NCBI RefSeq assembly: GCF_008386395.1
Contig: NZ_CP043761.1
Location: forward strand, 496,001 to 560,000
Length of the DNA stretch: 64,000 nucleotides
From: Paenibacillus sp. 37
Lineage (GTDB): Bacteria > Bacillota > Bacilli > Paenibacillales > Paenibacillaceae
Direction: 5' to 3'
Within the stretch, counting starts at the first letter, position 1. Each line of letters opens with the position of its first letter. The position numbers and the translations under genes are program-made. A model generated the notes under the pieces. The model did no database searches, was not told the DNA's origin, and was given only the letters and a program-made list of their open reading frames with translations. Below are positions 14,650 to 43,425 of the stretch, piece after piece.

Positions 14650-14836
14650 TTACACTTGCCATTCCGATGACAGAACAACCTTCCGATCGCTGTTATCCCT
14701 AGATTTTTTGATTCAATTTTTGTAAAGGTGAAAATCTAGTGATAGCCGATGCTTCCGATGAAGCTTTCTTTCAGAAAGCTTTTAGGCGAACGCCCTGCTT
14801 CCTCAGGTTATTTCTGTCCTCTACATTCTTGTGTAA
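14650..14836 (-). repeat. Dispersed repeat family 1, copy A
   Basis: A 187 bp element bounded by TTACAC (14650) and GTGTAA (14831). Read on the minus strand it contains GGGATAACAGCGAT (complement of 14686-14699), a CTAGATTTT/AAAATCTAG stem, and the insert AAGCTTTCT-ttc-AGAAAGCTT (14761-14781). It fills most of the space between the converging nitroreductase and TatD genes. Copies B, C and D lie at 17910, 34621 and 43290. No coding frame; it resembles a MITE or a structured intergenic element. Confidence 0.8.
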
Positions 14837-14869
14837 AAATTTTGTTCAACTGATATATACGGTAAATTA

Positions 14870-14903
14870 GAAGTCAGTCGGGGAAAAGTCGACTGGCTTC
14901 TTT
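14870..14903. terminator. Terminator between converging genes
   Basis: AGAAGTCAGTCG and CGACTGGCTTCTTT pair with one mismatch around GGGAAAAGT. It serves the nitroreductase gene from the left, and possibly the TatD-like gene from the right. Confidence 0.6.
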
Positions 14904-14955
14904 GTGCTGTGCTGGCAGAGTAAGCGAGTTTGCTTGCTTCTACAATAATGTTGAC

Positions 14956-15762
14956 TCAAGTTAATCCATAGAAACGCTTTGTGTTCTGATGAAAGAGACG
15001 GGCGGCCCGTTCGGTTCCCATGCCGGTGATCTCACTCCATGCCTGAATGACTTGTCTGGTCATGGCAGGGTGTGTCATTCGTCCCTGAAACGGCCCTTCG
15101 AAGGGCCAAGGTCCGTCGGTCTCGGCCATCACTTGTTCTGAAGGATATCGCCGGGCGAGTTCACGAATCTCTTCTTCATAGACAATATCCGGTGTGAAGG
15201 AAATGAAATAACCGTTGTCCGCTATGCGCCTTACGGTTTGGCGAGAACCCTTGAACCAGTGGAAATGAGCACGTCGGAATTGATATTGCTCCAGCAGATC
15301 ACAGACAATATCCGCATCATCGTATACTGCATGAAGGACAAGTGGTTTGTTATGCTTTTTCGCGAGTTGGATGAACCGTTCAAGCAGCTTGATATACCCG
15401 CTCTGATCGAAGCGCTGTCCTGCCTGCTCCGCTTCCTGACGATTGTAATAGGGAAGGCCAACTTCTCCGATGGCTGTAGCTTGTCCAATATGCTCTTCGA
15501 TCCATTGGAAGAACAGGTCCATTTCTGCAACGGAAGGCAGTTCCTGTTCTGGATGAAAACCGAAGGCCGGATAGATGGTGCGTGGATGTTGTTCGGCAAG
15601 CTCCAGATTGGCTTGGGCAGAAGCGAGATTCATGGACACGGCAATGACTGCTTCGACCTGGTGAGACGGGAAAGATAACAGCATCTCGCGTTGTTCGTCA
15701 GGGGTATACTGGTCGAAGTGAATATGAGCATCAATTAATGGTGCAAAAGCTTGAGAATGCAC
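14956..15762 (-). CDS. TatD-family metal-dependent hydrolase
   Basis: A 268-residue TIM-barrel hydrolase of the TatD DNase family. The metal site is visible as DAHIHFD near the N-terminus, GEVGLPYY in the middle, HAVYDDADI, HFHWFKGS and the ETDGPWPF aspartate motif. The ATG at 15786 lies before the ribosome site; AAGGAGGA followed 9 bp later by GTG at 15762 gives a better start. It is a single leftward gene next to the thiamine-precursor operon. Substrate not known; a nuclease or general hydrolase role is family-based. Confidence 0.87.
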   Translation of the reverse strand: MHSQAFAPLIDAHIHFDQYTPDEQREMLLSFPSHQVEAVIAVSMNLASAQANLELAEQHPRTIYPAFGFHPEQELPSVAEMDLFFQWIEEHIGQATAIGEVGLPYYNRQEAEQAGQRFDQSGYIKLLERFIQLAKKHNKPLVLHAVYDDADIVCDLLEQYQFRRAHFHWFKGSRQTVRRIADNGYFISFTPDIVYEEEIRELARRYPSEQVMAETDGPWPFEGPFQGRMTHPAMTRQVIQAWSEITGMGTERAARLFHQNTKRFYGLT

Positions 15763-15852
15763 GAGGGAATTCCTCCTTGTGGTCATTTATATTCTAACTA
15801 TGTTACGCAGAATTTCTTATGGTGGATCACCCATTAAAGGGAAATAATAACT

Positions 15853-15887
15853 TAAAAACCCGCGCTATTATGATAGGCGGGCTTTCT
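15853..15887 (-). terminator. Terminator overlapping the end of the ATPase gene
   Basis: Read leftward, AAAGCCCGCCTAT and ATAGCGCGGGTTTTT form the stem, with one bulge. The ATPase stop TAA (15868-15870) is in the loop, so the last four codons are part of the terminator. Confidence 0.75.
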
Positions 15888-16776
15888 GCTGCTCTTCTCT
15901 CATCCACTGTGCAATCTGCCGTTTACGCTCCAGAAAAGCAGATTCCTCCGTAATTTCTTCTCGTCTGGGGCGATCAAAAGGAACATGTACCTCGTGCAAC
16001 ACTGTTGCAGGTCGGTTGGATAACACATAGACCCGATCTGCAAGCAGCAATGCTTCTTCGATATTATGGGTGATGAACAGCACCGAGCGGCGGTTCTGTT
16101 CCCAGATATCGAGCAGCCAGCGCTGCATGTCGCTACGTGTCAGTGCATCCAGCGCGCTGAAGGGTTCGTCCAGCAGCATCAGTTCCTGCGGACTGAGCAG
16201 GGCGCGCAGGAATGCAGCACGCTGCTGCATTCCGCCCGACAGCATATGAGGGTATGCCTGCTCGAACCCGGCAAGACCCACGCTGCTTAACCACTTACGA
16301 GCTTCTGCAAGTGCTTCGGTCCGAGGGGGAGCGCTTGAAGCTACTTCTCCAGCAAGCAGTACATTGTCTTCAATGGTCCGCCAAGGGAAAAGAGCAGGCT
16401 GTTGTGGCATATAACTGATCTTGCCACGTTGGCCCGTTACATCATGATCGTCCATGAACACTCGCCCTTCCTGTGGCTTCAGAAGACCGCCGATGATATG
16501 GAACAGGGTGCTTTTGCCACAGCCGGATGGCCCAACGATAGCAACAAACTCGCCTTGCTCCACAGTCAGGGATAGGCCGTTCAGAACCGGTAACCTGCTC
16601 CGCCGTTCACGGAATGATGCATGAACATCCACGACATCCAGTGCAGGTGGAACCGTAGCAGCAGTCGTATTTGTCGGTAGACCAGGATTAGCCGAGTGAA
16701 GTTTTTCACCGTGCTTTGGTTCCAATGCGCGTGCTCCCCGTTCAGGCTGGACATGTTCGTCCTGTTGCCGATTCAT
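15868..16776 (-). CDS. Thiamine-precursor ABC transporter ATPase (ThiZ-like)
   Basis: A 302-residue ATPase of the NitT/TauT type. Walker A is [10 protein letters not shown]-loop SYMPQQPALFPWRTI, signature LSGGMQQRAAFLRALL and Walker B LMLLDEPFSALDALT; the switch histidine is in FITHNIEEA. An N-terminal extension of about 45 polar residues has no known role. It is the last gene of a leftward unit with a permease, a thiamine-binding-type protein and a THI5-like binding protein behind a TPP riboswitch, so uptake of thiamine or its pyrimidine precursor is likely. Confidence 0.88.
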   Translation of the reverse strand: MNRQQDEHVQPERGARALEPKHGEKLHSANPGLPTNTTAATVPPALDVVDVHASFRERRSRLPVLNGLSLTVEQGEFVAIVGPSGCGKSTLFHIIGGLLKPQEGRVFMDDHDVTGQRGKISYMPQQPALFPWRTIEDNVLLAGEVASSAPPRTEALAEARKWLSSVGLAGFEQAYPHMLSGGMQQRAAFLRALLSPQELMLLDEPFSALDALTRSDMQRWLLDIWEQNRRSVLFITHNIEEALLLADRVYVLSNRPATVLHEVHVPFDRPRREEITEESAFLERKRQIAQWMREEQQKARLS

Positions 16777-16813
16777 ATGGTCATCACTTCCTAATTACAG
16801 ATTACTTGCTTTA

Positions 16814-17572
16814 CTACCGCTTCTGTGGCCGCCAGCGCACGAGCAGCTTCTCCAGAAGGGCAATGAACAGGAAGAGCAGCAAGCTGAGCGCGACAATAAT
16901 CATGATCGCCACGAATAGGCGGTCCGTACGATAAGCCGACTTTTGCAGCATCATATAATAACCAATACCCTTATCTGCACCGATCCATTCGGCGATAATG
17001 GCACCCATTACGCTATAGGTAGCAGCGATTTTGACACCGGAGAACACGGATGGCAGCGCATGGGGAAGCTCCAGCTTCCAGAAGATATGATGACGTTTCG
17101 CACCAGCCATGCGCATATAGTTCATCATCGCTGCATCTGTACGGGTCAAGCCGTCCATGGCTGCCACTGCAACGGGGAAGAAGCAGACGAGGATGATGGT
17201 AATCAGCTTGGGCAACAGCCCGAATCCGAACCAGATTAACAGGAGCGGCGCGAGCGCGATGGTCGGAATATTTTGACTAAGAATAAGTAATGGATACAGG
17301 GCTGACTTGAGAAAAGGAACCAAATGCAGCACCATCGCGATCAGTAATCCAACCGCTGTGCCGGCGGCGAATCCGATAAGCGTTAACTGAATGGTTGCGG
17401 AAGCGTGCATGCCAAGCCGATCAGCCTGGGATGCCGCTTCGCGGGCGATATCAGACGGTGCTGGCAGCATCCATTTTTCAATATGGAACAGGGAGACAGC
17501 TCCCTGCCATATCGCTATAAAGAGAATAACCGCCACAATGGGCGGCCATACACTTTTGAAATAGGCATTCAT
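16814..17572 (-). CDS. Thiamine-precursor ABC transporter permease (ThiX-like)
   Basis: A 252-residue BPD_transp_1 permease with six hydrophobic helices. The coupling loop reads DAAMMNYMRMAGAKRHHIFWKLELPHALPS (key residues M-AGA and LP), which meets the ATPase. The ATG overlaps the preceding stop by one base (TAATG), so translation is coupled to the MTH1187-like gene. Family members import aliphatic sulfonates, nitrate or the pyrimidine HMP; the riboswitch upstream favours the last. Confidence 0.88.
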   Translation of the reverse strand: MNAYFKSVWPPIVAVILFIAIWQGAVSLFHIEKWMLPAPSDIAREAASQADRLGMHASATIQLTLIGFAAGTAVGLLIAMVLHLVPFLKSALYPLLILSQNIPTIALAPLLLIWFGFGLLPKLITIILVCFFPVAVAAMDGLTRTDAAMMNYMRMAGAKRHHIFWKLELPHALPSVFSGVKIAATYSVMGAIIAEWIGADKGIGYYMMLQKSAYRTDRLFVAIMIIVALSLLLFLFIALLEKLLVRWRPQKR

Positions 17573-17862
17573 TAGCGGTACTTCTCCGTCAGGGTATCCA
17601 TGCTGAAGCCAGTAGGGCTATGGGCGATTTTGATCTGGGAGATGATGCTTGGGCTGCCAGCCTCGACGAGTACTTCGTGCATTTTGCGGACAACCTCCAG
17701 CAGTTCCTCCAGTTCCCCCTCCATCGTGGTGTCGAGCGGGTTCACCTGATATTTCAGGCCAGATTGCTGAATAACTTCAATGGCGCGATCTACATAAGGA
17801 TATGAGTTCTCGCCATTAGGCGTTTTCGGAATAACCTGAATGCTAAGTAGTGTGCTTGCCAT
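17572..17862 (-). CDS. MTH1187/YkoF-type thiamine-binding protein
   Basis: A 96-residue ferredoxin-fold protein of the DUF77/MTH1187 family, whose members bind thiamine or related pyrimidines. The conserved pattern is an N-terminal strand STLLSIQVIPKT, then YPYVDRAIEVIQQSGLKYQV, then PLDTTMEGELEELLEVV, in the usual order. AAAGGAG lies before the ATG. Its position between binding protein and permease genes fits a substrate-holding role in the cytosol. A dispersed repeat separates it from the binding-protein gene. Confidence 0.85.
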   Translation of the reverse strand: MASTLLSIQVIPKTPNGENSYPYVDRAIEVIQQSGLKYQVNPLDTTMEGELEELLEVVRKMHEVLVEAGSPSIISQIKIAHSPTGFSMDTLTEKYR

Positions 17863-17909
17863 GAGAGATCACGGCTCCTTTCGTGATATATAAAATGAAC
17901 TAATGACGG

Positions 17910-18058
17910 TTACACTTGCCACTTCGATGACAGAATAACCTTCCAATCGCTGTTATCCCCAGATTTTTTTGATTCCCTTTCTCTAAAGGGAAAATCCGGT
18001 GATAAAGGCGACCGCTTCGCTTTTTCACGTTATTTCTGTCCTCTCCGTCCTCGTGTAA
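17910..18058 (-). repeat. Dispersed repeat family 1, copy B, inside the thi operon
   Basis: A 149 bp element bounded by TTACAC (17910) and GTGTAA (18053). The minus strand carries CACCGGATTTT, CCCTTT-AGAG-AAAGGG, AAAATCTGGGG and the ATAACAGCGAT core. It lacks the AAGCTTTCT insert of copies A and C. It sits between the binding-protein gene and the MTH1187-like gene, so it would be transcribed as part of the operon mRNA. Confidence 0.8.
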
Positions 18059-18086
18059 ATATTAAGTTCGTTTTATATGAGATATT

Positions 18087-19127
18087 TTATTGGGGTAAAA
18101 ACGCGTTCGTATATGCTTTGCTCACGTCGACCTGTTCATCCAGCAGTTTTTTGCTAAACATCCAGTCGGTGTAGTTCTGCCATACTTCCTGTTTCTGTTC
18201 TCCCCAGCGCGGGGCGTCATCCGTGTACTTTGGACTAAGCCATTTCTGGCTTGCCAGGACCAAGTCTTTATCCAGATCCGGGACGGCCTTGATCAGAATA
18301 TTCGCTGCGTCTTCGGGATGATCAATTGCGTATTGATATCCTTCTGAAGTGGCTTTCAGGAATGCTTTCACCAACTCAGGGTCGTTCTGAATCGTCTGCT
18401 CGTTTGTTACGAGAACAGGCGTGTAGTAATCCAGTGCATCTGAATAATCCTTCACATATAACATGTCGATCGGTTCTCCGCGCAGTTCAGCTTCAATCCC
18501 CGTCCAGGCGTAGAAAATCCACGCGAAATCAATATCCCGTTTCACTGCGGTGAAAAAGTCAGCGTCACCCATGTTAATGTTTTTTACTTTGGATACATCG
18601 GCTCCGTCGCCTTCCATAATGGATTGCATCACGGCTTCTTCCACAGGCGAACCCCAACCGCCATAGGTTTTCCCTTCAAAATCTTTCGGTGACTTGATAT
18701 TCCGATCCGCCGGAGCAGCGAACCCGGATGTATTATGCTGAATAACTGCTGCGATGGAGACGAGTGGAACACCTTGTGTACGGGCTTGAGTTACACTTTC
18801 CTGATAACTTACGCCAAAAGGCACTTCATTCGAGGCAACCATCGTATCTGCGCCGCCGGCACCTGGCTGGACAATCTCCACATTCAAGCCTTCGGCCTTA
18901 TAAAAACCTTGATCTACAGCTGCATATAAGCCGGTATGATTCGTATTTGGTGTCCAGTCGAGTACGACTTTAATATCCTTGAGGGCTGCGTTGTCACCTT
19001 CGTTGCTGCTCTCCGTATTCGTGTTGCCGTTCTGTTCTGCCGGGGCAGCTTCTTTACCGCCACATGCGGCCACGGTCACCAGTAGTACACATAAGAGCAA
19101 CAGTCCCATTGTTTTACGCCATTTCAT
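18087..19127 (-). CDS. Thiamine-precursor binding lipoprotein (ThiY/THI5-like)
   Basis: A 346-residue substrate-binding lipoprotein of the NMT1/THI5 family. The signal peptide ends in a lipobox VAACGG (cysteine about residue 22) and is followed by a Glu/Asn/Ser-rich linker. VVLDWTPNTNHTGLYAA is the family's N-terminal motif, then GGADTMVASNEVPFGVSY, and a C-terminal periplasmic-binding fold. The start was set at 19127 after GAAGGAGAG; the open frame continues to 19196 without a ribosome site. First gene after the TPP riboswitch. It probably binds HMP or formylaminopyrimidine outside the membrane. Confidence 0.9.
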   Translation of the reverse strand: MKWRKTMGLLLLCVLLVTVAACGGKEAAPAEQNGNTNTESSNEGDNAALKDIKVVLDWTPNTNHTGLYAAVDQGFYKAEGLNVEIVQPGAGGADTMVASNEVPFGVSYQESVTQARTQGVPLVSIAAVIQHNTSGFAAPADRNIKSPKDFEGKTYGGWGSPVEEAVMQSIMEGDGADVSKVKNINMGDADFFTAVKRDIDFAWIFYAWTGIEAELRGEPIDMLYVKDYSDALDYYTPVLVTNEQTIQNDPELVKAFLKATSEGYQYAIDHPEDAANILIKAVPDLDKDLVLASQKWLSPKYTDDAPRWGEQKQEVWQNYTDWMFSKKLLDEQVDVSKAYTNAFLPQ

Positions 19128-19263
19128 CTGTGATTCTCTCCTTCGGTATGTCCGGCCGATTGGCACGGGGTACTCCTTGGCTTCATATCCAATCATCTTG
19201 CATAAATCGACAGATTTATACCAGTTGGATCTGGATGACTTATTTTTGTTTCGATAAATAAAA

Positions 19264-19293
19264 CAAAAAAAGCGTCCCGTAATCCGGGACGCG
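19264..19293 (-). terminator. Riboswitch expression-platform terminator
   Basis: Read leftward, GCGTCCCG-gatta-CGGGACGC is followed by seven T. It lies between the TPP aptamer and the binding-protein gene and is the off-state terminator. Confidence 0.88.
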
Positions 19294-19343
19294 TGCAGGC
19301 GTTAGAGAGGTGGCGTTCAGCCAGAGGGCTGTGCCATTTCGAT

Positions 19344-19437
19344 ATACTCCGATTCCTACGCTGGCATGATCCAGATCAGGTCTAAGGGTTAGTATCTTGG
19401 TGGGATACACTCTCAGCCGGCCAATTCCGACTCCCCT
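19344..19437 (-). promoter_or_regulatory. TPP riboswitch (THI box)
   Basis: Read leftward, the conserved blocks GGCTGAGAG, ACCCTTAGACCTGATCTGG and ATGCCAGCGTAGGAA are all present in order. Binding of thiamine pyrophosphate should favour the downstream terminator and switch off the transporter operon. Confidence 0.95.
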
Positions 19438-19881
19438 GGGAAACTATGAAGTTACGGGCATTACTAGGTGTAATTATAGGCCAGAGGCCCATTCGTGTCC
19501 AGTCAGGAACTGGATGGGGACAGATATGAACTTATCAAACAGGCCTTTATACAGATGTATATCAGCCTGTTTAGATGTGTTATTTTCAATAATTATCATT
19601 GCGAATCATATAAGGAAATCTGGCTGAGTGTAAAAGCACCGGATAGTGGGTCATAGCCTAAGTGCTGAAGATCTGGAGGGCTCCCAACAAATACTTAGAT
19701 CAAATCCGATGTTTGATATCTCGTCGCATAAGGGCTGCTTTCCCTATTTCAGTGATCAGCTTTTGCTCGTTTGACCTTGAGCGGTGCAGCTTGAGTAATT
19801 TAAACAACATAATTTAGATACAAAAGGAGATAGTACTGCTATACAAATAAATACTTTTACATACAAGTGGGGGAGTACTGA
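19438..19881. other. Divergent intergenic region
   Basis: No gene seen. It holds the promoter side of the TPP riboswitch and a hairpin AAACAGGC (19537) / GCCTGTTT (19571) of unknown role. The phospholipase-D-like gene has GGGGGAG before its ATG, but no clear promoter boxes. Confidence 0.5.
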
Positions 19882-21282
19882 ATGATCCTTAAAACCATAA
19901 TCGCAATTATTTTGTCCTATAGTGTCTACGTTTTTTTCACGGCTTACCTTTTATTTTTGGTTCCGTCTCCATCGACTATTGAAAATACGGATATGCAAAA
20001 AACGTTAACAGAAGGAAGTACAACAGATCGCGTAATGCTCCTGGAGGACGGCTTTCAATCGGGTCAGGTGAGAATCCAGACCATTCGAGAGGCGAAAACA
20101 AGCATCGACCTGGCGTATTACTCCATCCAAAAAGGAAAAACATCTCAACTCTTTTTTGCTGCGTTATTCGATGCAGCTGATCGGGGTGTTCATGTTCGAA
20201 TCATTTTAGACGGGATTTTTCACAGCATGCGCGGAGAGTTGCGTAATATTCCAGATGCCATTGCAGCTCACCCCAATGTGGAATTAAGATATTATGAACC
20301 ACTCCACCTATTTATGCCATGGACATGGCATAACCGTATGCATGACAAGATCCTTCTTGTCGACAACACATATGGCATTATTGGCGGCCAAAATATTGGT
20401 GATAAATACATGGCATCGCAACCCCCAAAAGACTATGTATTCGATCGGGATGTCCTTGTTTACAATACAAACGATAATACGAACAGCACGGTTGTTGAAA
20501 TGAAACAATATATAGATCAGTTATGGAACCATCCATTCACCAAACCAGAAAAACATGCAAAACGTCAGCATCATGCAAAGGGGCTAAAAGAGCTTTCTCA
20601 ACTAGCTGAGTTATATCAAAAAGCTCAGGCTCAGAACGATCCTTTTGTTAAAGTGTTGCCAAAGGAATGGGTTCGAGGAGCGCTTCATTCCGACCACGTT
20701 GCTTTCATTCACAATCCAATTAAAAGGCTGTATAAAGACCCGATCATGTGGAGAACATTTGTTCATTTCGCCAATCAAGCAAAGTCGAAAGTGTACCTTC
20801 AGACGCCATATGCCATTCCTACCAAGAAAATGGAGAAAGCCGTACATCTGTCGATGAATCCAGAAACAGAATGGGTCATGCTGACGAATTCAATCCAACA
20901 GACCCCTAACCCTTTGGCTTTCGCGGGATACTTAAGCTCTAAAAAACGGTTGCTTGATACCAGTCTGGCCATATATGAATACGAAGGCCCTTATTCCATA
21001 CACGGCAAATCATTTGTCATGGATGATTACCTCAGCATGGTTGGTTCGTATAATTTTGATCCCAGATCTGCCTTCCTCAATACTGAATCTGCTGTGGTCA
21101 TTTCTGGTTCTGCATTCGCCGACCAACTAACAGAGGCTATGGATATCAAACGTGCACATAGTACACTTGCGGTTAAAGGTGAGCATCCAGCAGAATCTAC
21201 GAATCAGAAAGGCTCTGTTTTCAAACGAATGGCAATCACAGCGTTATCCAAACTGTCTTTTCTCTGGAAATTTATGTTGTAG
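19882..21282 (+). CDS. Phospholipase D-like protein (cardiolipin synthase type)
   Basis: A 466-residue protein with an N-terminal membrane anchor (about residues 5-28) and two HKD motifs. The first is MHDKILLVD (H154, K156, D161), the second is IHGKSFVMD (H374, K376, D381) followed by GSYNFDPRS. Two HKD motifs make one active site that forms a phospho-histidine intermediate. Length and N-terminal anchor fit cardiolipin synthase or a related phosphatidyl transferase; a phospholipase is also possible. It is followed by a small membrane protein gene about 170 bp away. Confidence 0.85.
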   Translation: MILKTIIAIILSYSVYVFFTAYLLFLVPSPSTIENTDMQKTLTEGSTTDRVMLLEDGFQSGQVRIQTIREAKTSIDLAYYSIQKGKTSQLFFAALFDAADRGVHVRIILDGIFHSMRGELRNIPDAIAAHPNVELRYYEPLHLFMPWTWHNRMHDKILLVDNTYGIIGGQNIGDKYMASQPPKDYVFDRDVLVYNTNDNTNSTVVEMKQYIDQLWNHPFTKPEKHAKRQHHAKGLKELSQLAELYQKAQAQNDPFVKVLPKEWVRGALHSDHVAFIHNPIKRLYKDPIMWRTFVHFANQAKSKVYLQTPYAIPTKKMEKAVHLSMNPETEWVMLTNSIQQTPNPLAFAGYLSSKKRLLDTSLAIYEYEGPYSIHGKSFVMDDYLSMVGSYNFDPRSAFLNTESAVVISGSAFADQLTEAMDIKRAHSTLAVKGEHPAESTNQKGSVFKRMAITALSKLSFLWKFML

Positions 21283-21452
21283 ATAAAAACTGCATTCTAT
21301 TGAGGTTGAATTTTTCTCCGCTTCATCGAAACTTGCGTTTCTCGCGTCAACCTGCAATTCATCACACGGGAAGAAAATCAGATTTGTTCACGGAATGTTC
21401 ACTTATGTGGAGGGTTTACTCATCTCTATAATTACGAAGGTAAACAGAGAGG

Positions 21453-21962
21453 ATGAGAGAATTGCCAACAAGCAAGAAGGAACAAATTTTTTTCGGATTA
21501 ATGATGTGTACAGGAATGGTCTTGGTCATGATGTTCTTCAATCTATGGCACAGTGGGCTACTCGGCAAGATGTCCCCGCTTGAAATACTGTTTCAATTCA
21601 TATTGTGTTTTGTCATCGCTTTTCTGGTGGAGTCCTTCATTGTTGGCCCAGTAGCGAGAAAAATTGCATTTTCCTTACCTTTTGACAAGTCCAACAAGAT
21701 CCTTGGTGTGCTGGTCATGTCATTTTTCATGGTACTTGGCATGGTTCTGATCATGTCCTTGTACGGAATGATTTCAGCGTATCTTGCGGACCAATTAATT
21801 GGGGTATCCTTACTTGGTACGTACCTTCATACAATTACTCGTAATTTCAGCCTCGCGCTTCCCTATCAATTAATTATTCTGGGGCCGCTCGTACGATATG
21901 TATTCGGTAAATTCATCAAGGGCAACGGGCCTGTAATGCCTGCTGTTAACAAAAGTGTGTAA
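21453..21962 (+). CDS. DUF2798-type membrane protein
   Basis: A 169-residue membrane protein with four hydrophobic segments arranged as two similar halves (QIFFGLMMCTGMVLVMMFFN and ILGVLVMSFFMVLGMVLIMS). That internal repeat is typical of tandem DUF2798 proteins. GAGAGG directly abuts the ATG, an unusually short spacing, so the start may be slightly different. Function unknown. Confidence 0.75.
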   Translation: MRELPTSKKEQIFFGLMMCTGMVLVMMFFNLWHSGLLGKMSPLEILFQFILCFVIAFLVESFIVGPVARKIAFSLPFDKSNKILGVLVMSFFMVLGMVLIMSLYGMISAYLADQLIGVSLLGTYLHTITRNFSLALPYQLIILGPLVRYVFGKFIKGNGPVMPAVNKSV

Positions 21963-22080
21963 TTCCGATGGCTTAAAGTATTTCCTGGGCAATCTTGTGC
22001 AAATGAATAGATCGTATTCTCACCTGTAATGAAAGGTGATCTGAGGCAAAGATAGGATACTTTTCACCATGATTACAGCG

Positions 22081-22275
22081 CTAACGAATCGAGGACATCT
22101 TATTCGGCCAGTTTCTAAGGGAATGAAAATCTAACGAATCTCAGTGGTGTTATTATGAAAAAAACCTCCAACGAGGCATTTAATTGAAGCTAATTATCTA
22201 TAATAACGTCTCTAGGATTCGTTAGATTTCAAATATGCAGAAATGGAGGGGGATAGCGTGTGCTAGGTTCGTTAG
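22081..22275. repeat. Dispersed repeat family 2, copy 1
   Basis: CTAACGAATC occurs at 22081 and 22131; its complement GATTCGTTAG is at 22216, and GGTTCGTTAG at 22266. Between them are CAGTGGTGTTATTATG and a TAATTGAAGCTAATTA palindrome. A related stretch lies at 58515-58640. No coding frame; the outward pairs could fold into a large hairpin. Confidence 0.6.
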
Positions 22276-22291
22276 AACAGAGTAACGCTAA

Positions 22292-22334
22292 AACAAAATG
22301 TCCACCGCCAAAGTCATGGAGGTGGACATCTCAA
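22292..22334 (-). terminator. MFS gene terminator
   Basis: Read leftward, ATGTCCACCTCC and GGCGGTGGACAT form the stem, followed by TTTTGTTTT. It lies 50 bp past the MFS transporter stop. Confidence 0.8.
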
Positions 22335-22384
22335 TCCCTATAATTGGTAATTCGACTCTCAGGCTAAGGGCGGACCCATAACTG

Positions 22385-23620: not shown

Positions 23621-23742
23621 AAAGAACTCCTTCTACATATATACATAAATTGAGGATCACAATAAAGCGTAATCATGAAGACAAAGTCTATCATAACAGG
23701 ACAAGTTACGTTGTGCCATGAATTCCTGATCGATACAAAAGG

Positions 23743-23772
23743 TTGCAATTTGGTCTATCGTTCGTATATACT
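23743..23772 (+). promoter_or_regulatory. Promoter of the serS leader
   Basis: TTGCAA (23743-23748) and TATACT (23767-23772) are 18 bp apart, just before the T-box leader. Confidence 0.55.
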
Positions 23773-23778
23773 GAGACA

Positions 23779-23986: not shown

Positions 23987-24008
23987 ACAGCCAAAGGAGA
24001 CGGTGACC

Positions 24009-25307: not shown

Positions 25308-25333
25308 AGAGGTTATATAACGCTTTAGGCAGT

Positions 25334-30420: not shown

Positions 30421-30423
30421 TAG

Positions 30424-31257: not shown

Positions 31258-31295
31258 CGATACGCTAAACGTGTGGATAAAGGGGGAGATGGCGC

Positions 31296-33813: not shown

Positions 33814-33890
33814 TAACCATGTTCAGCAGAACAACAGTAGTATCAGGTTGTTCGGATTGAACTCTGAAATTTTGGAATGACAAGGAGTGA

Positions 33891-34358: not shown

Positions 34359-34620
34359 ATCACCCATGAAGAAATTTTGCGCTAACCCCTTTATGTAAAC
34401 ACTTTTATAAAGCGATTTGCCGATTTTGTCACGTTTGCGTGCAGGTTCAAGGGATTCACCATAGGTGAGGTGGGTACACTATAAGTACAGGCTTGTTACA
34501 GAGCTGCATTAAGCTGGCTCTAGTGATAAGCGATTAATGAACTGTCATTAAACAAAAGAGAGAGTAACAACTACACTTCTCTTTGTACTTTTATTAATCA
34601 ACCTTAATTGGGAGAACGGT
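34359..34620. other. Intergenic region before repeat copy C
   Basis: No gene seen. CGCT/AGCG plus TTTAT/ATAAA pairing around 34380-34415 may be the Nudix terminator, but there is no T run. The start of the next gene is at 34849, after the repeat. Confidence 0.4.
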
Positions 34621-34800
34621 AGACGTAGTGGAGGGGACGGAATCGATTCTGAGGAAGCGAAGCGTTCGCCTAAAAGCTTTCTGAAAGAAAGCTACATCGG
34701 AAGCATATGCTATCACCGGATTTTTCCTTTGAGAAAAGGGAATCAAAAAAATCTGGGGATAACAGCGATCCAAAGAACGATCCGTACCCGCAACGGCCGC
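34621..34800 (+). repeat. Dispersed repeat family 1, copy C
   Basis: In plus orientation: GAGGAAGCGAAGCGTTCGCC, the AGCTTTCT-gaa-AGAAAGCT insert (34675-34693), ATCACCGGATTTTT, CCTTT-GAG-AAAAGG, AAAAATCTGG and the GGGGATAACAGCGAT core (34755-34769). The outer ends are worn compared with copies A and B, so limits are approximate. It lies upstream of the gene at 34849 and opens that gene's frame artificially. Confidence 0.78.
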
Positions 34801-34848
34801 CTACAAGAGTTCTTCAAATATTCCCCCAAACCGAAAGGAGCACTTCCC

Positions 34849-35265: not shown

Positions 35266-35331
35266 TCCGAATATGAACATAACCTCTGCAAAGTAGCGTC
35301 CTTATGCGAAAATACGCGCAGAGTTTAATCC

Positions 35332-35366
35332 AACCGTGAAAGCCATGAAGGTTTCACGGTTTTTGG
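35332..35366 (+). terminator. Terminator after the PNPOx-like gene
   Basis: AACCGTGAAA and TTTCACGGTTTTT are perfect arms around GCCATGAAGG. Confidence 0.85.
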
Positions 35367-35742
35367 TATGGATGAATAAAGATGAATTGGTTATACATGT
35401 AAGCCACATGTAATATACGTATTTTAAAGATAATAAGTACGATATACCTACTAAAATGTTGAAAAAAATGTCGAAATCACGCATGATAATGTAAACTTAC
35501 CTAGGTATGTGCGGTTAATGTAAAAAATAATGCTTTTCAATGGCTGAACATTGCGTTATGATTTTGAATGTAAACGACAAGCACAGACATAAATAGATGT
35601 TCATGTGAGATAAACTTACCTGAAATTCCGATGCATGTCATCAGAGCGTCAGTACGCACAACCCATGAGATCTATCTTTTTTCTGCGCTCTTCGTTTGCC
35701 CATTAATGCATGATTCAATGTACATAACCGGGAGGGGTTATT
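35367..35742 (+). other. Upstream region of the 5'-nucleotidase gene
   Basis: No gene seen in this AT-rich stretch. TAAACTTACCT is repeated exactly at 35492-35502 and 35611-35621, and ATGTAAAC at 35489 and 35569, which may be regulator sites. A clear GGGAGGGG lies before the TTG start. Confidence 0.4.
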
Positions 35743-38016
35743 TTGAAAACGAGTAAAAAAGTATTATCAAGCCTGACTGCCGCTTTGGTTGCATTAAACG
35801 TGCTTGCGGTGTTTCCGGTACCTGTATCGGCTGCGGATGCTGCCAAAGTTAAACTGCGGATCATGGAGACAACAGACATTCATGACAATCTGATTAACTA
35901 CGATTATTATTCCGACAAAGAGACAGATCAGTATGGACTTGCCAAAACAGCTACACTGATCAAAAAAGCGCGTGATGAAGCCAAGAACAGCTTGCTGTTC
36001 GACAATGGTGATCTGATTCAGGGTAACCCGCTGGGAGACTATGTTGCGAAGATTGATCCACTGAAAAAGGGTGAGACTCACCCTGTATATAAAGCGATGA
36101 ATCTGCTCGATTATGATGCAGGTAACATCGGTAACCATGAGTTCAACTATGGTCTGGACTTCCTGGACATGACGCTGGAGGGAGCGAACTTCCCTTACAT
36201 TAATGCCAATGTTTATGTAGACGATGGTGATGATGATGAGACAAATGACAAGAATTACTTCACACCGTATGAGATTTTGGATAAAAAAGTAACGGATGAG
36301 ACTGGCAAAGAACATACGATCAAAGTGGGTGTGATCGGATTTGTACCGCCACAAGTCATGCAGTGGGACAGCGCTAACCTTGAAGGCAAAGTCATCGCCA
36401 AGGATATTATTGCTACCGCTAAAAAATTCATTCCAAAAATGAAGGCCGAAGGTGCCGACATTATTGTAGCCATTCCTCACTCCGGATTTGAGGATATCCC
36501 TCAAACGGATCTGATGGAGAACTCCGTACTGTACCTGAGTCAGGTAGAAGGCATTAATGCCATTCTGTTTGGACATGCTCACAAAGTATTCCCAAGTGCT
36601 GATTTTGCCGGCAAAAAAGGGGTAGACCTTGAGAAAGGCACAATCAATGGCGTTCCTGCTGTTGAGCCAGGGTTCTGGGGTGATCACCTGGGGATTATTG
36701 ATCTGGATCTGGAGCTGGTTGATGGCAAATGGAAAGTGGTGGATTCCAAAACGGAAGCACGCCCAATCTATGACACTGCGAACAAAAAGCCACTGGTAGA
36801 TGCGGATAAAGACATCATTGATGCGGTTCATGAAGAGCATGAAGGTACATTGGAGTATGTTCGTGGTCCAGTAGGCGAAACGACAGCACCGATCAACAGC
36901 TTCTTCGCTCTGGTTCAGGATGATCCATCCATTCAGATCGTAACGAATGCACAGAAATGGTATGTCGAAAAACATATGCAAGGTACGGAGTATGAGAAAA
37001 TTCCTGTATTGTCCGCAGGTGCACCATTCAAAGCCGGTGGACGTTCAGGCGCTTCGTATTACACGAATATTCCTAAAGGCACCATTGCGATCAAAAACGT
37101 TGCTGACCTGTACGTGTATCCAAATACGGTACATGCTGTAATGGTTAACGGCGCAGAACTGAAAGAATGGCTGGAATGGTCTGCAGGCCAGTTCAACCAG
37201 ATTGACCCGGCCAAAGGTGGACAACAACAACTGATCAACAACGACTTCCCAACGTACAACTTCGATGTTATCGATGGTGTAACGTATCAGATCGATGTGA
37301 CACAACCAGCCAAGTATGACGGCAAAGCAACCGTTGTAAATGCATCGGCAAGCCGGATCAAGGATCTGAGTTTTAACGGTAAACCGATTGACCCAGCGCA
37401 AAAATTCATCGTAGCGACGAATAACTACCGTGCATCTTCATCCAAGCTGGCTAACCCGGACGGTAAACGTATCGTTCTGGCTGCACCGGATGAGAACCGT
37501 CAAGTGATCATCGATTACATCCGTGAAAATAAAACGATTAATCCGGCAGCGGACGGCAACTGGTCCCTGGCACCAATCAAACCATCTGCTGGTGTAACTG
37601 CAGCAGCACTTAACGACCTTGAAGTGGTATTCGCATCTTCCCCGGATGCCAAAAATCTGGTAGAAGCGAACCCGGCGATGTCTTTCATTGGTACAAATGA
37701 TGATGGTTTTGCTGAATACGGCATGAAATTGACTGGAGAAGCAACAACAACTCCGAAACCAGGTTCGGAGCCTGCTCCTACGCCTACAAAGCCAACTAAA
37801 CCTACGGAGCCGACTACTCCAACCAAACCAACGACCAAGCCACAGCCTGAGAAACCAGCGGGCGGCAAAGTGGTATATGTGGTGAAAAAAGGGGACAACC
37901 TGTACCGCATCGGTATGAAATATGGTGTGGACTGGCGCAAGCTGGCAACAGCTAACAAAATCTCGAATGTTCATAACCTGAAAGTTGGACAGAAAATCGT
38001 GATTCCCGCTTCTTAA
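35743..38016 (+). CDS. Secreted 5'-nucleotidase/cyclic phosphodiesterase with LysM
   Basis: A 757-residue surface enzyme. After a signal peptide (cleavage near VSAADA, residue 31) comes a calcineurin-like metallophosphatase domain with TTDIHDNL, FDNGDLIQGN, GNIGNHEFNYG, PHSGFE and FGHAHKVF. The 5'-nucleotidase C-terminal domain follows, then a Pro/Thr repeat linker (about 665-705) and one LysM domain (VVYVVKKGDNLYRIG to VGQKIVIP). LysM binds peptidoglycan, so the enzyme is held at the wall, where it would split 2',3'-cyclic nucleotides or 5'-NMPs to nucleosides and phosphate. TTG start after GGGAGGGG. Confidence 0.92.
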   Translation: MKTSKKVLSSLTAALVALNVLAVFPVPVSAADAAKVKLRIMETTDIHDNLINYDYYSDKETDQYGLAKTATLIKKARDEAKNSLLFDNGDLIQGNPLGDYVAKIDPLKKGETHPVYKAMNLLDYDAGNIGNHEFNYGLDFLDMTLEGANFPYINANVYVDDGDDDETNDKNYFTPYEILDKKVTDETGKEHTIKVGVIGFVPPQVMQWDSANLEGKVIAKDIIATAKKFIPKMKAEGADIIVAIPHSGFEDIPQTDLMENSVLYLSQVEGINAILFGHAHKVFPSADFAGKKGVDLEKGTINGVPAVEPGFWGDHLGIIDLDLELVDGKWKVVDSKTEARPIYDTANKKPLVDADKDIIDAVHEEHEGTLEYVRGPVGETTAPINSFFALVQDDPSIQIVTNAQKWYVEKHMQGTEYEKIPVLSAGAPFKAGGRSGASYYTNIPKGTIAIKNVADLYVYPNTVHAVMVNGAELKEWLEWSAGQFNQIDPAKGGQQQLINNDFPTYNFDVIDGVTYQIDVTQPAKYDGKATVVNASASRIKDLSFNGKPIDPAQKFIVATNNYRASSSKLANPDGKRIVLAAPDENRQVIIDYIRENKTINPAADGNWSLAPIKPSAGVTAAALNDLEVVFASSPDAKNLVEANPAMSFIGTNDDGFAEYGMKLTGEATTTPKPGSEPAPTPTKPTKPTEPTTPTKPTTKPQPEKPAGGKVVYVVKKGDNLYRIGMKYGVDWRKLATANKISNVHNLKVGQKIVIPAS

Positions 38017-38037
38017 AGTGTAATAAGCTGAGGAGGA

Positions 38038-38069
38038 GACCGACAGTCATCAGACTGTCGGTCTTTTTT
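38038..38069 (+). terminator. 5'-nucleotidase gene terminator
   Basis: GACCGACAGTC-atca-GACTGTCGGTC is perfect and ends in six T. Confidence 0.92.
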
Positions 38070-38229
38070 CTGCAAATTTGAATATATTTGTTCCAAGAAC
38101 CGTCATACAGGAAGTCATCAAAACAGTAGAGATTAATTTTAAGACCCATGATATAATATTTACAAACTTTGGGTATATACAAGTGAACATTAATGGACAT
38201 GGAATCTAAATTGGCAAGGGGGGTCCTAC

Positions 38230-39288
38230 ATGAATTGCAGTGGCTGCAGTCCAATCTATGCTATAGAGGGCCAAGGTACCTTGTACTTGCGTCCCATTTC
38301 CCCCGCTTTGCTGGAAGCGCTACAAACGCCGGGAAGACTTATTGAGACGTCGGATGACATGATGTGGATGGATTTTTCGAATCTTGAGACGGTTCAGAGC
38401 TTAATAGAAGAGATCGGCGAAATTGATCCGACATTACGTGATTCCCTAACCGTTCAGATTCTGCCTATTTACGAACAGGCTAATGAAGAAAGCTGGATTA
38501 GTCTAACCATGCAGGAGTCCCGTTTCAAACATGCGGAGCTTGTTTCCATTATTCTGGAGCATCAATTCAGCAGTCATATGCAACCCATCGTTGATGCATC
38601 GGAGCAGATCATCGGATATGAGTTTTTGCTTCGTCCTGCTGAGAATGGAAAATCCTTCAGTTCCTATGAATTATTTGAAGTTGCGCGTGAGACCGGACTA
38701 CATTCTTTTCTGGATCGATTGGCGCGTATTACTGCTATTGAGACCAGTGCCCTTTTTCTGCCGCATGGTGTCAAACGCTTCGTAAATTTCCTGCCTTCCT
38801 CCATATACAATCCTGAATATTGTCTGACACATACGTTTGAAGCGATTGAACGCCTTTCGCTGGACCCTAAAGATTTTGTGTTTGAAGTCGTGGAAACAGA
38901 GCAGATTCAGCATATGCCCATCTTGCAGCAAATATTTGAGGTATATCGTTCCCGTGGAATGTCGGTTGCACTGGATGATGTGGGTGCCGGATATTCGACA
39001 ATAGAGTTGATGAATCGGTTAGAACCGGATTTTGTCAAAATAGATCGAAGTCTTATTGACCGTTGTGATCAGGATTCGACCAAACAACAGCAAATTCTTC
39101 ACATTGTTGAGATGTCGAGTCGATTTGGAGGGCAAGTTCTTGCCGAGGGGATCGAACGGATGGAAGAGTTTGAATTCTGTCGTTCCATAGGTATTGAGCT
39201 TGCACAGGGCTACTATTTTGGTAAACCCTCGGCACAACCCCCAGGCGGTCCGTACTCTAATACTTCATCTAATTCATGGAATAATTAG
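38230..39288 (+). CDS. EAL-domain c-di-GMP phosphodiesterase
   Basis: A 352-residue cytoplasmic protein. The first 105 residues begin MNCSGCSP, with a CxxC pair that may bind a metal, and are otherwise unknown. The EAL domain keeps catalytic residues: YEFLLRP (EAL replaced by EFL), NFLPSS, EVVETE, DDVGAG, VKIDRSL, LAEGIE and AQGYYFGKP. It therefore probably hydrolyses c-di-GMP. Lacks GGDEF or membrane parts. Single gene followed by a terminator and a chemoreceptor gene, so both may affect motility. Confidence 0.88.
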   Translation: MNCSGCSPIYAIEGQGTLYLRPISPALLEALQTPGRLIETSDDMMWMDFSNLETVQSLIEEIGEIDPTLRDSLTVQILPIYEQANEESWISLTMQESRFKHAELVSIILEHQFSSHMQPIVDASEQIIGYEFLLRPAENGKSFSSYELFEVARETGLHSFLDRLARITAIETSALFLPHGVKRFVNFLPSSIYNPEYCLTHTFEAIERLSLDPKDFVFEVVETEQIQHMPILQQIFEVYRSRGMSVALDDVGAGYSTIELMNRLEPDFVKIDRSLIDRCDQDSTKQQQILHIVEMSSRFGGQVLAEGIERMEEFEFCRSIGIELAQGYYFGKPSAQPPGGPYSNTSSNSWNN

Positions 39289-39303
39289 TAACCTGTATCT
39301 TGT

Positions 39304-39334
39304 ACAAGTCGCTTCTGATCAGAGGTGGCTTGTT
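39304..39334 (+). terminator. Hairpin after the EAL gene
   Basis: ACAAGTC and GGCTTGTTT pair around an inner CTGATCAG palindrome. Short T run. Confidence 0.5.
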
Positions 39335-39461
39335 TGGCGTGCCTGCACATTTTTCACTCAAATAAAAACCCTCATTTAGCCGATATATAAGATAAGCCTT
39401 TTAGATTGATCCATACATACAAAGAAAGAGGGCATTTTTACATTTTGAGGGGGAGAAAGAC

Positions 39462-41552
39462 ATGAGTGAAACTCAGGATAATAAACCAATGAAAGCAGCG
39501 AAACCTGCCAAACCAAAACATAATCAAAATAAAAAGAAGAAGAAAAAGAAAGGTTTCGTCTGGAATATAAGGAACAAACTATTGGTCTCCTTCCTGGCCG
39601 TTCTGCTCCTGCCAAGCTTGGCGATCGGCTTGATCACACTAACGATGGCTGAAGATGGCGTACAAGGACAATTAGTGGATAGTGCCAAGCAAAGTGTGAG
39701 CACTGCCAATATCATTGTAGAAAGCCAAGTGAATTATAAGATCCATGATATTAACTATTTCGGGGATGCCCTTGATCCGGGCTTGGTCAAAGGGGAGAAC
39801 GATAGTCCAGAGCTTCAGTTGAAGCTGGAGCAATATCTGGGCTTGCATCCCGATGCCATGAACATTTTTGTAGGAACAACGGAAGGAGTCATGGTTCGGG
39901 GTAAAGCAACAGCAAGCAGTACGCGGGGAGATGCATATGATCCTAGGGAGCGGGAGTGGTACAAACTAGCGATGGAAAAGCCGGGTACAGCCGTTGTATC
40001 CGCTGTGTCTGTTAATACCGATGGCGTTGCCGTTGTATTTATCTCCAAAACATTAAAGGACCAATCCGGTGTTGTCGGTTTGTCTCTGGATCTAACAGAC
40101 CTGCAAGAGCAAGCATCCATTAAGGTGGGTAAAGAAGGCTACGTCATTATTTTGGATGCAAACAAAAATTATGTCGTATCGCCTGTAGCAGATGCAGGTA
40201 CACAGGAAGCTAGTGGTTTGCTGGATGAAATGTATGAGGGTAAAGAAGGTCAATTCGATTATGTATTCAATGAGCAACCGAAAACGATGATCTTTGCTAC
40301 CAATGAAGCAACGGGCTGGAAAATTGCCGGAACGATGTCTAAAAGTGAAATAACCAATGCGAGCAAGGACATTCGCATGATTACATTTGTAGTGATCCTG
40401 GCGGCTACGTTCCTTACGCTCATCTTCATAATCTGGTTTACACGCTCCATGCTGCGTCCAATCAAACGACTTCAGGAATCGGCCAGAGCGGTAAGTAAAG
40501 GCGACTTGACCGTGAAAATGGAAACTGGGCGTAAAGATGAAGTCGGGGAACTGGCAAAATATTTTGAACGTATGGTCGATAACCTGCGAATGATGATTCT
40601 TGGTGTACAAGAAACGACAGAGCAGGTATCTGCTTCTTCTCAAGAGTTGTCTGCCAGTGCAGAACAAACCACCAAAGCGATTGAACATTCAACACAGGCC
40701 ATTCAGGAACTGGCTGAAGGTGCAGAGCAGCAGGTAAACAGCGTGAAAGATGGATCGGGACAGATGAGCCGAATGGCAGAAGATGTTCGCATGATGTCCG
40801 AGCGTGTGCAATCGATTACGGCGAATATGCGGAATACGTCCGGAGCGGCTTCTTCTGGGAATGAGGCAGCAGGACAGGCTGTGGAGCAGATGAACAGTAT
40901 CCAGGAAACGGTGGAGCAGCTGGGAACGGTGGTTCAATCTCTGAATGCCCGTTCCGTTGAAATTGGTAGCATGGTTGATGTCATTGCATCCATCTCGAAA
41001 CAAACGAACTTGCTCGCATTAAATGCTTCTATTGAAGCGGCAAGAGCGGGGGATGCGGGTCGTGGGTTTGCAGTTGTAGCCGGTGAGGTACGCAAACTGG
41101 CAGAAGAATCCGGAAGTTCGGCAGCGCAGATTGGTGAGGTGGTTCATAATATCCGTCAGGACATGGATGCCGCTCTAATCGCCATGAATGCGGCTCAGAC
41201 TCGGGTAGGAGAAGGAATTCAGGCTGTGAATACGTCAGGACAATCCTTTGCTCAGATTCGGGAGGCGGTGGAAGATGCTGTTCATACATTGGATGACTTG
41301 TCCGCAACAACGAAACAACTGGAGAGTGGTGCATCCCACGTTGCCAAGGCGATGAGTGATATTTCGAATGTGACCCAGGAATCGGCTGCGAATACAGAAT
41401 CCGTGTCTGCATCTTCGCAAGAACAACTGGCATCGGTAGAAGAGATCGCATCATCCTCGGCACATTTGAACAGTATGGCGGAACAATTGCAGGGATTGCT
41501 TGGCATGTTCAAGATGGTGGAGGATACGCCGAAGGATAAGGGCAAAGAATAA
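39462..41552 (+). CDS. Methyl-accepting chemotaxis protein
   Basis: A 696-residue chemoreceptor. An unusual Lys-rich cytosolic start (seven Lys in a row near residue 25) precedes membrane helix 1 (about 40-62). A dCache-type sensor fills the outside loop to about 305, helix 2 follows, then HAMP ([20 protein letters not shown]) and the signalling coil with the tip [19 protein letters not shown]. Ligand unknown. GGGGGAG before the ATG. It signals to CheA/CheW, which are not in the window. Confidence 0.93.
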
Positions 41553-41740
41553 ATTCCAGCATTTTAGCAACATAATCTACCACAACTTTTATATATAGAA
41601 GAAAATAAAGATAGACAATGTTCCTGTAGCCCTGTATAAATATATCGTCTGGTTATTCTGCGCGTATAGCGGTGTAATCTTACAAAACAAGATCGAATTA
41701 ACGAAATAATATATGGATACAGGGTACAGCAGGAGGCTCT

Positions 41741-43033
41741 ATGGTATACGTAGCAATACTGATTTTTGTAGTAACAATCACCTTGGTAATCTGGCAACCT
41801 CGTGGATTGGGGATCGGTTGGACTGCCTCGGGTGGGGCATTGGTTGCCTTGCTATGCGGGGTCGTCAGCTTGAACGATGCCTCGGATGTAGCATCCATTG
41901 TATGGAATGCAACGCTGGCCTTTGTTGGCATTATTATGATTTCTCTCATTCTCGACGAGACGGGTTTCTTTGAATGGGCTGCCCTTCATATGGCAAGGCT
42001 GGCTGGAGGAGACGGTCGCAGACTGTTCTTCTACTCCATTCTGCTGGGAGCCGCAGTATCTGCCCTGTTCGCCAATGATGGTGCAGCGCTCATCCTGACG
42101 CCAATTGTACTGGCGATGGTGCGGGCATTAAAGTTTGATGAGCGTATGGTACTGGCTTTTGTAATGGCGAGTGGATTTATCGCGGATACTACATCGTTGC
42201 CGCTGGTCGTCAGCAATTTAGTTAACATTGTGTCTGCCGATTTCTTTGGCATTACATTTGTAGAGTATGCGGTACGCATGGCCGTGCCGAATCTGATCTC
42301 GATTGTAGCGAGTACGGGGATGTTATTCTTGTTTTATCGCAAAAGCATACCCCAGCGCTACGACATCTCTCTAGCACGCGATCCGAAGGAAGCAATACGT
42401 GATCCACGGATGTTCCGAATTGCCTGGTTCATGCTTGGGCTGTTATTGGTGGCTTACGCATCCAGTGAGTTTCTGCCGATTCCCGTGTCGGTGATCGTGG
42501 GCTCCGTTGCGCTGCTGTTCGCTTTACTGGCACGCAAGAGCGAGGCTGTTGATCTGAAACGGGTCATTAAGGAAGCGCCATGGTCAATTGTGGTGTTCTC
42601 CGTGGGCATGTATATCGTCGTATATGGACTGCGGAATGCAGGGTTAACGGATCATCTGAGCCGCTGGCTGGATGCCATAGCAGAGCATGGTCTGCTGGCT
42701 GCTTCGCTCGGAATGGGCATCATAGCGGCCGTATTGTCATCGGTCATGAACAATCTGCCGACCGTATTGATTAACCTGCTAGCCATCCAGGGCGCGCATA
42801 CCGAAGGTATCATTCAGGAAGCATTGATCTATGCCAATGTCATTGGTTCCGACCTGGGCCCCAAAATGACTCCGATTGGATCACTTGCCACATTGCTGTG
42901 GCTGCATGTGTTATCCCGCAAAGGTGTGAAGATTACATGGGGGTATTATTTCAAGGTAGGCATCATCCTGACGATTCCAACATTATTAATTACCCTAGCT
43001 GGATTGGCATTGTGGTTATGGATTCTAGGTTAG
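41741..43033 (+). CDS. ArsB-type arsenite/anion exporter
   Basis: A 430-residue membrane protein of the ArsB/NhaD ion transporter family with about 11-12 helices. [20 protein letters not shown] and [14 protein letters not shown] are the two inverted-repeat motifs of this family; [23 protein letters not shown] is highly typical of ArsB. It probably exports arsenite or antimonite. No ArsR or ArsC gene lies next to it, which is unusual for an arsenic operon. AGGAGG before the start. Ends before a terminator at 43086. Confidence 0.85.
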
Positions 43034-43085
43034 TTAAATTAGATTTTACATTAAGTATCAATAAGATAATTCTATTGTAATGTAA

Positions 43086-43137
43086 AAGGCTGCTCTCACA
43101 GCTGGTGCTACGCACTGGCAGCGAGGCAGTTTTTTTC
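43086..43137 (+). terminator. arsB-type gene terminator
   Basis: CTGCTCTCACAGCTGGTG and CACTGGCAGCGAGGCAG pair imperfectly around CTACG and end in seven T. Confidence 0.65.
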
Positions 43138-43206
43138 TGCTTTTGTACCTTCTATAGAAGAAACAGATTTTCTTTCTCTATTAAAGAATCAACAAAGTAT
43201 TTACAC

Positions 43207-43238
43207 AAGGCCAGCCTTTTATAGGGCTGGCCTTCTTT
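43207..43238. terminator. Second hairpin after the exporter gene
   Basis: AAGGCCAGCC and GGCTGGCCTT are perfect arms with TTTTATAG in the loop and CTTT after. No gene ends here, so it may be a repeat remnant or backup terminator. Confidence 0.6.
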
Positions 43239-43289
43239 GCCTACTTCCCAGGCAGGAGATGGAAATGCCTGAGATCCAACGAGCGCTGA

Positions 43290-43425
43290 CACAGCGAAGG
43301 GAACGGAACGATTGTGGAAAATCGAAGCGTTCGCCTTTATCCCCGGATGTATTCCTTGGAAAAAGTAAATCATATAAATCCGGGGATAACAGCGATTGAA
43401 ACAACGTCCGTTACCGAAGCGCCCA
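43290..43425 (+). repeat. Dispersed repeat family 1, copy D
   Basis: CGAAGCGTTCGCC, then a perfect stem TTATCCCCGGAT (43337-43348) / ATCCGGGGATAA (43378-43389) and the GGGGATAACAGCGAT core (43382-43396). The AAGCTTTCT insert is absent, as in copy B, and the inner stem-loop is worn. It lies about 170 bp before pstS; limits approximate. Confidence 0.75.

Follow-up and report, generated by a model that had tools for sequence, protein, structure and literature searches.

We describe here a family of intergenic repeats of roughly 150-200 bases that is specific to the Paenibacillales and built on a conserved structured core. It was examined in the window, i.e. the whole stretch of 64,000 nucleotides of Paenibacillus sp. 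37 analysed here (NCBI RefSeq assembly GCF_008386395.1, contig NZ_CP043761.1, positions 496,001 to 560,000; G000:C1:496001-560000 in our numbering of genomes and contigs), where a preliminary description had pointed out four copies (A to D) of a dispersed hairpin. At least 150 copies, and not four, were found in the genome search. None of the families in the RNA library searched matches the repeat, which has the appearance of a hitherto undescribed mobile element that probably acts as RNA. We regard it as very likely that the family is a real, selected and order-specific structured element.

Copy number and distribution

The genome of strain 37 comprises 7.62 Mb in two contigs, i.e. a chromosome of 7.08 Mb and a second contig of 0.54 Mb; as dnaA lies at C1:25, the 7.08-Mb contig was taken as starting at the origin. 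A covariance model (R1), built from 20 copies (alignment A1), retrieved at least 150 chromosomal copies, and none of the 150 scored copies lay on the second contig (G000:C2), the length of which would predict about 11. The motif GGGGATAACAGCGAT occurs with at most one mismatch at 140 genome sites (52 on the plus and 88 on the minus strand) versus 0 for the reversed control, and CGAAGCGTTCGCC occurs exactly 34 times versus once for its control. Chance duplication of four sequences was ruled out by these motif counts, by the number of copies and by the covariation described below. One degenerate near-complete minus-strand copy (L460, G000:C1 about 606000) lies outside the scored set, so that the true copy count exceeds 150.

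Among relatives, R1 matched 41 of 59 genomes, i.e. all 36 genomes of the genus (strain 37 included) and five of the 23 from elsewhere in the order. A second model, R2, matched 228 of 296 genomes and 29 of 48 genera across the order, and a third, R3, matched 39 of 398 genomes across the class, including a single one from beyond the order, and 7 of 398 across the phylum, all in the family to which strain 37 belongs. Searches covering more than 40 genomes were run with stricter filters, under which weak matches are lost. Copy number per genome ranged from 1 to at least 150. The only genome with matches from outside the order (G321; two matches, best E 5.7e-8) may reflect transfer or a sister lineage.

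The core pattern was retrieved from at least 120 loci of named genomes; among the 80 matches listed, all were from Paenibacillus except three from Saccharibacillus and one from a "Bacillus sp." record. One record of the plasmid collection, from Paenibacillus, matched half of the query at 74.5 %. No match to the element was found in phage records, and ten viral contigs carry it. Nothing on this Paenibacillus element was found among the papers listed from the open-licence PMC literature, the coverage of which is too partial to prove novelty.

Two further arrangements of copies were seen. Inverted pairs with their 5' ends facing, 336-340 bases apart, occur in four genomes (G106:C1:4079255-4079891, G187:C18:124749-125420, G222:C1:4992678-4993315 and G060:C10:18468-19093). 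By eye, the 3' arm is tandemly repeated downstream, in units of roughly 37-45 nt, at L182, L183, L194, L266, L447, L450, L452 and L456.

Structure and covariation of the core

The copies form one long interrupted hairpin with three covarying stems, P1, P2 (UCGC/GCGA) and P3, and with conserved internal loops. RNAalifold already returned two-sided changes at 15 of 30 pairs on alignment A1, and both sides had changed at 32 of 35 pairs in alignment A3 (80 rows, including two stray reverse-strand matches) and at 34 of 35 in alignment A5 (66 diverse copies, none of them such a stray match), in which 95.7 % of cells are paired. The covariation of A5 was 0.686, versus 0.212 after shuffling (0 of 500 shuffles as high) and at most 0.127 with slid partners. 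These very strong counts support the earlier proposal that a folded hairpin, of RNA or of DNA, is under selection. G-U cells are more frequent than A-C cells (89 versus 23 in A5, p=2e-10; 100 versus 34 in A3), which indicates that the strand as given is the folding strand; a covarying secondary structure on one strand, by which structured cis-acting RNAs are recognised, is present in the family.

The stem P2 was added by hand in R2 after inspection of divergent copies; its variants in other copies are UCGU/ACGA, CCGC/GCGG and GCGC/GCGC. Relative to R1, most divergent copies score higher with R2 (from 97.8 to 105.5 bits for L184 and from 89.2 to 97.6 for L198), and L186 and several type I copies (defined below) score slightly lower (from 161.3 to 157.0 for L036). 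A local hairpin formed by GCGAAGCGTTCGC was considered and rejected: divergent copies lend it no support, and its 3' half (UCGC) pairs with the GCGA that follows P3, all four P2 pairs showing two-sided changes.

Conservation at unpaired positions falls, among others, on GNA motifs, on the bulge around AGaAgCGnAGcG, on the bases beside P2 and on CggAa. By eye, the fold contains two GNA-type 3x3 loops, a 10-nt bulge near AGCGnAGCGU and an apical ACC...GAAUCA. In addition, a small loop is able to take a module of 38 nt. This module, itself a hairpin, is found in some of the copies only, at a single fixed loop; it was seen elsewhere in L022 and in both places in L033 and L034.

The statement that no named family was known for the repeat also stood. 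Rfam 15 gave no match to the copies at gathering score, copy C yielding four sub-threshold matches only (E 0.63 to 7.7), and eight loci with divergent copies gave no match at E up to 0.5.

Copy types, terminal arms and mobility

Two types of copies were distinguished. Type I copies bear terminal inverted repeats (TIRs), with arms like CTATATAAGTTGAACTAA...TTAGTTCAACTTATATAG, and both arms are present (at most four mismatches each) in 46 of the 150 copies. Type II copies, i.e. C and D in the window, have a different P1 and other arms, so that the TIRs by which miniature inverted-repeat transposable elements (MITEs) are recognised were found in type I only. The internal loops are conserved; the terminal arms vary between lineages, other genera having their own (by eye). 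Within the type I arms, position 8 (25 G-C, 15 A-T) is paired in 40 of 46 copies versus 22.6 expected, and position 11 in 42 versus 32.2 expected; the remaining 15 positions are near expectation. At L273 (about 1820-2009 of the G015 block), the arms are swapped, with GTTCAACTTA at the 5' and TAAGTTGAAC at the 3' end, as if the core or the arms had been inverted.

Comparison of occupied with empty sites gave no clear target-site duplication, the ends being TATATA-like palindromes. The genome holds 68 matches to the type I arm at up to two mismatches, 16 of which are not beside any of the 150 copies. Nine orphan-arm loci, covering 10 of these 16 matches, were inspected; they comprised five internally deleted copies, two truncated ones, one lone arm and one degenerate near-complete copy. 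In none of these nine loci could a transposase be recognised by eye that would point to an autonomous parent carrying type I arms, and none was recognised by eye beside the copies at 25 low-copy loci with open reading frames (ORFs) listed. As TIRs are confined to type I, no partner was seen in the loci inspected and no target duplication is clear, the element was not filed as a MITE.

Copies in the window and orthologous sites

The four copies lie where they had been reported, R2 matching them with E values from 1.3e-34 to 3.1e-28 and R1 giving identical coordinates. Copies A (14631..14859, core 14647-14835) and B (17887..18080, core 17907-18057) are of type I and on the minus strand; copies C (34613..34816, core 34619-34807) and D (43283..43434, core 43285-43433) are of type II and on the plus strand. 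The 38-nt module is inserted in copy A at the P2/P3 internal loop (AAAAGCTTTCTGAAAGAAAGCT..., 14746..14783, minus strand) and in copy C at 34672..34709 (plus strand). P2 and P3 of copy D read TCGC-CTTTATCCCCGGAT...ATCCGGGGATAACA-GCGA (43331..43395, plus strand). All four are stable relative to shuffled sequences, with folding z-scores of -3.98 (A), -4.81 (B), -4.36 (C) and -4.55 (D) and 0 of 200 shuffles as stable for each.

The stem variants of the preliminary description were recovered, i.e. CGGAT/ATCTG in B and C, TAGAT/ATCTA in A and a perfect TTATCCCCGGAT/ATCCGGGGATAA in D. Its shared motifs held in part: CGAAGCGTTCGCC is exact in C and D, B having CGAAGCGGTCGCC and A CAGGGCGTTCGCC instead, and copy A carries AGGGATAACAGCGAT in place of GGGG.

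Copy A is flanked by a TatD_DNase gene (14956-15786, minus) and a convergent nitroreductase gene (13890-14633, plus), and follows a terminator-like hairpin (by eye). Copy B lies in an operon-like setting between an NMT1-like gene (stop 18087) and a Thiamine_BP gene (start 17862); upstream of this NMT1-like operon is a thiamine pyrophosphate (TPP) riboswitch (19335-19447, minus). Downstream of copy C is a PNPOx_N gene (ATG 34849). Copy D is flanked by an ArsB-type gene and a pstS-like gene (43599), with a conserved pst promoter block downstream of it. The window also holds a tandem glycine riboswitch (48802-48924 and 48929-49064, plus).

The comparison of orthologous sites covered blocks of 60-64 kb around the window from ten relatives, i.e. 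11 genomes with strain 37 (G000). Some copies, of type I with TIRs, vary in their presence between genomes; others are retained at fixed sites, and D is under constraint. Site A carries a copy in G000 and G021 only, is cleanly empty in G002 and G008, and in G015 has kept both arms and lost the core at a TAC microhomology. Site B is occupied in 8 of the 11 genomes by two subfamilies, the G002 copy being a chimera of both; a cleanly empty state of the site in G011 and G003 was considered and dropped, because arm-like remnants in both genomes could mean deletions. At sites C and D a copy is present in 11 of 11 genomes, in the same orientation throughout, apart from a second, opposite match beside D in G012; in some genomes (G015, G003, G011) these copies are nested or replaced. 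The 38-nt module was gained or lost between orthologous copies: it is absent from copy A of G021 and from the other ten copies aligned at site C, except for a module at another position in G012. Nested copies were noted by eye, with no claim of enrichment, at L015, at site B of G010, at sites C and D of G015 and at site D of G011 and G003.

The core at site D is 86-93 % identical between G000 and G001, G012, G019 and G010, and identity at the fourfold sites of five neighbouring genes is 44-51 %. The flanks of D are less conserved than the core and the pst promoter block is more conserved; differences within D are concentrated in the apical loop. Identity is low (69-74 %) in G015, G011 and G003 because the copy matched there is the nested one.

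Position and orientation

Only 3 of the 150 copies lie inside an ORF. Among the 105 copies with a downstream gene on the same strand, its start falls within 100 nt of the model end in 81 and within 60 nt in 63. Between co-directional genes, 82 of 105 copies point with the genes, and 39 of 82 co-directional pairs are operon-like. A second set, i.e. the 75 usable contexts among the loci from named genomes, gave 36 copies with both genes, 9 against both and 16 and 14 mixed; the downstream start lay within 100 nt in 37 of 50.

Orientation is also tied to replication, 115 of 150 copies being co-oriented with the fork (p=4e-11). In a logistic fit (149 copies), the coefficient was 0.87 for replication (standard error (SE) 0.22, likelihood-ratio (LR) p=6e-5) and 0.37 for each flanking gene (SE 0.14, LR p=0.007). 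Where co-directional genes are on the lagging strand, 8 copies point with the fork and 7 with the genes. Upstream terminators, seen at 25 of 149 copies versus 9-15 in five simple shuffles, were too weak a signal to use.

Phage-borne copies

By eye, the element directly follows an xkdX-type frame in nine of the ten viral contigs; these nine prophage-like contigs (L447, L449-L456) carry it in the late operon. A holin-type gene comes next in five of seven contigs inspected (L447, L449, L451, L455, L456), L453 ending too early and L448 lying elsewhere. Pfam assigned two proteins from viral contigs to Phage_XkdX and Phage_holin_4_1.

Possible mode of action

Our preferred reading, put forward tentatively, is that the family may be a MITE-like repeat that is non-autonomous and has a core acting in cis, as RNA, on the next gene. 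We infer this function because no other reading unites as well the strand specificity, the short distance to start codons, the orientation relative to genes and the position of the phage copies. When the flanking operon is transcribed, the hairpin would form in the transcript, either in the leader or between cistrons, immediately before the ribosome-binding site of the next gene; a conserved host factor (a protein, an RNase or the ribosome) could then bind its purine-rich loops, and the element would serve as a cis signal for mRNA processing or stability of the downstream gene, while spreading as a non-autonomous element with trans-acting help.

Several points weigh against this reading. As a predictor of orientation, replication is at least as strong as genes are, which a role in RNA only leaves unexplained, and 23 of the 105 copies between co-directional genes point against both; the genes themselves were called by a simple ORF finder. 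Copy D may be poorly transcribed, since it comes after a terminator-like hairpin (by eye) and ahead of the conserved pst promoter block. Constraint is weaker at site C, with 71-84 % identity to six more distant genomes. As regards the fold, A5 was aligned to a model of this same structure and is hence biased towards it, and the shuffled covariation control ignores relatedness, the slid-partner control being the better guide.

The replication effect, which persists once gene strand is corrected for, is the strongest point in favour of a role at the DNA level, perhaps in mobilisation. The functional molecule would then be single-stranded DNA: at the fork, the lagging-strand template would fold into the hairpin, which would be used in mobilisation, in copying or in some role linked to replication; we consider this rather unlikely. 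It would fit the 31 of 44 copies between non-co-directional genes that are co-oriented with the fork, but this excess stems from divergent pairs (19/22), and the absence of bias between convergent pairs (12/22) weakens the argument. Losses do resemble deletions within a hairpin, as at the TAC microhomology of G015 and in five of the nine orphan-arm loci. Yet there is an independent contribution of gene strand, inspection by eye of the 25 low-copy loci showed no recognisable transposase, and the conserved parts of the repeat are internal; in HUH/Y1 elements they are, as a rule, at the ends. RNA and DNA roles may also both hold.

An ordinary MITE, moved by a DDE transposase acting on the TIRs, with structure and conservation as by-products of recent bursts and gene conversion, could account for the 46 copies with both type I arms, for the chimeric site B copy of G002 and for copy A, which is a recent insertion. 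This explanation appears quite unlikely to us: arms differ between lineages (by eye), type I arm positions 8 and 11 change in a paired way, the nine orphan-arm loci revealed no transposase-bearing element with these arms, and target-site duplication is not clear. It is further strained by D, a type II copy without these TIRs that is nevertheless conserved at a fixed site. Alternatively, each copy could be a small RNA gene of its own, together supplying a non-coding RNA that acts in trans and is amplified by gene dosage. This is in keeping with a folded core conserved across the order beside differing genes, but seems very improbable given the strong positional tie to the next start codon and the fixed operon position of most phage copies; a copy number of 1 to at least 150 also fits poorly.

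More speculatively, and with little expectation that it is correct, the element could be a mobile one selected for its internal fold and not for its ends. RNA, or one DNA strand, would be the selected form, with internal loops recognised by a host factor for both cis regulation and spread; the arms would drift while keeping their pairing, and resident copies, e.g. that beside the pst operon, would have been turned into domesticated regulatory RNAs across much of the genus.

If the cis-acting RNA reading holds, a well-sequenced order harbours a very abundant structured non-coding element without an Rfam family or a name in the literature searched, and a single genome offers more than 100 natural variants for testing the effect of a long conserved hairpin on its neighbours. 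Spread and conservation of terminal sequences, normally joined in MITEs, would here come apart. Ready test cases are provided by the copies that follow xkdX in phages and by the constrained one next to pstS.

Comparison with known repeats

Like MITEs in general, including RUP, type I copies are short, non-coding, intergenic, bounded by terminal inverted arms and present or absent between related genomes. They differ from them in that conservation across lineages resides in internal loops and not in the TIRs, that no parent was seen, and that some copies are fixed and D is constrained. A strand-specific hairpin, an intergenic location and many copies are shared with REP/BIME sequences and their RAYT transposases; the Paenibacillales element is much longer, has internal conserved motifs and had no adjacent Y1 transposase recognised in the loci inspected. 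ERIC, NEMIS and BOX are long intergenic hairpins of other bacteria that are able to act on mRNA; compared by description only, they resemble the present family as long hairpins between genes, differ in their hosts and are not known to be related to it in sequence.

The nearest described kind is the bcr1-type repeat (PMC6542083, PMC3446304, PMC2267715), being alike in intergenic position, size, copy number and chromosomal location. According to these accounts, bcr1-bcr18 are specific to the Bacillus cereus group, intergenic, 100-400 bp long, mostly chromosomal and linked to a TTTAT motif, with up to 130 copies of bcr1 (PMC6542083); bcr1-bcr3 are MITE-like, bcr3 correlates with longer half-life, and repeat copies were found in mRNA, in untranslated regions or between operon genes, for 84 of 165 and 62 of 155 copies in two strains (PMC3446304). 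Set apart by description, the Paenibacillales family differs from bcr1-bcr18 in that it spans an order, shows no clear duplication, covaries at nearly every pair and combines conserved loops with variable arms.

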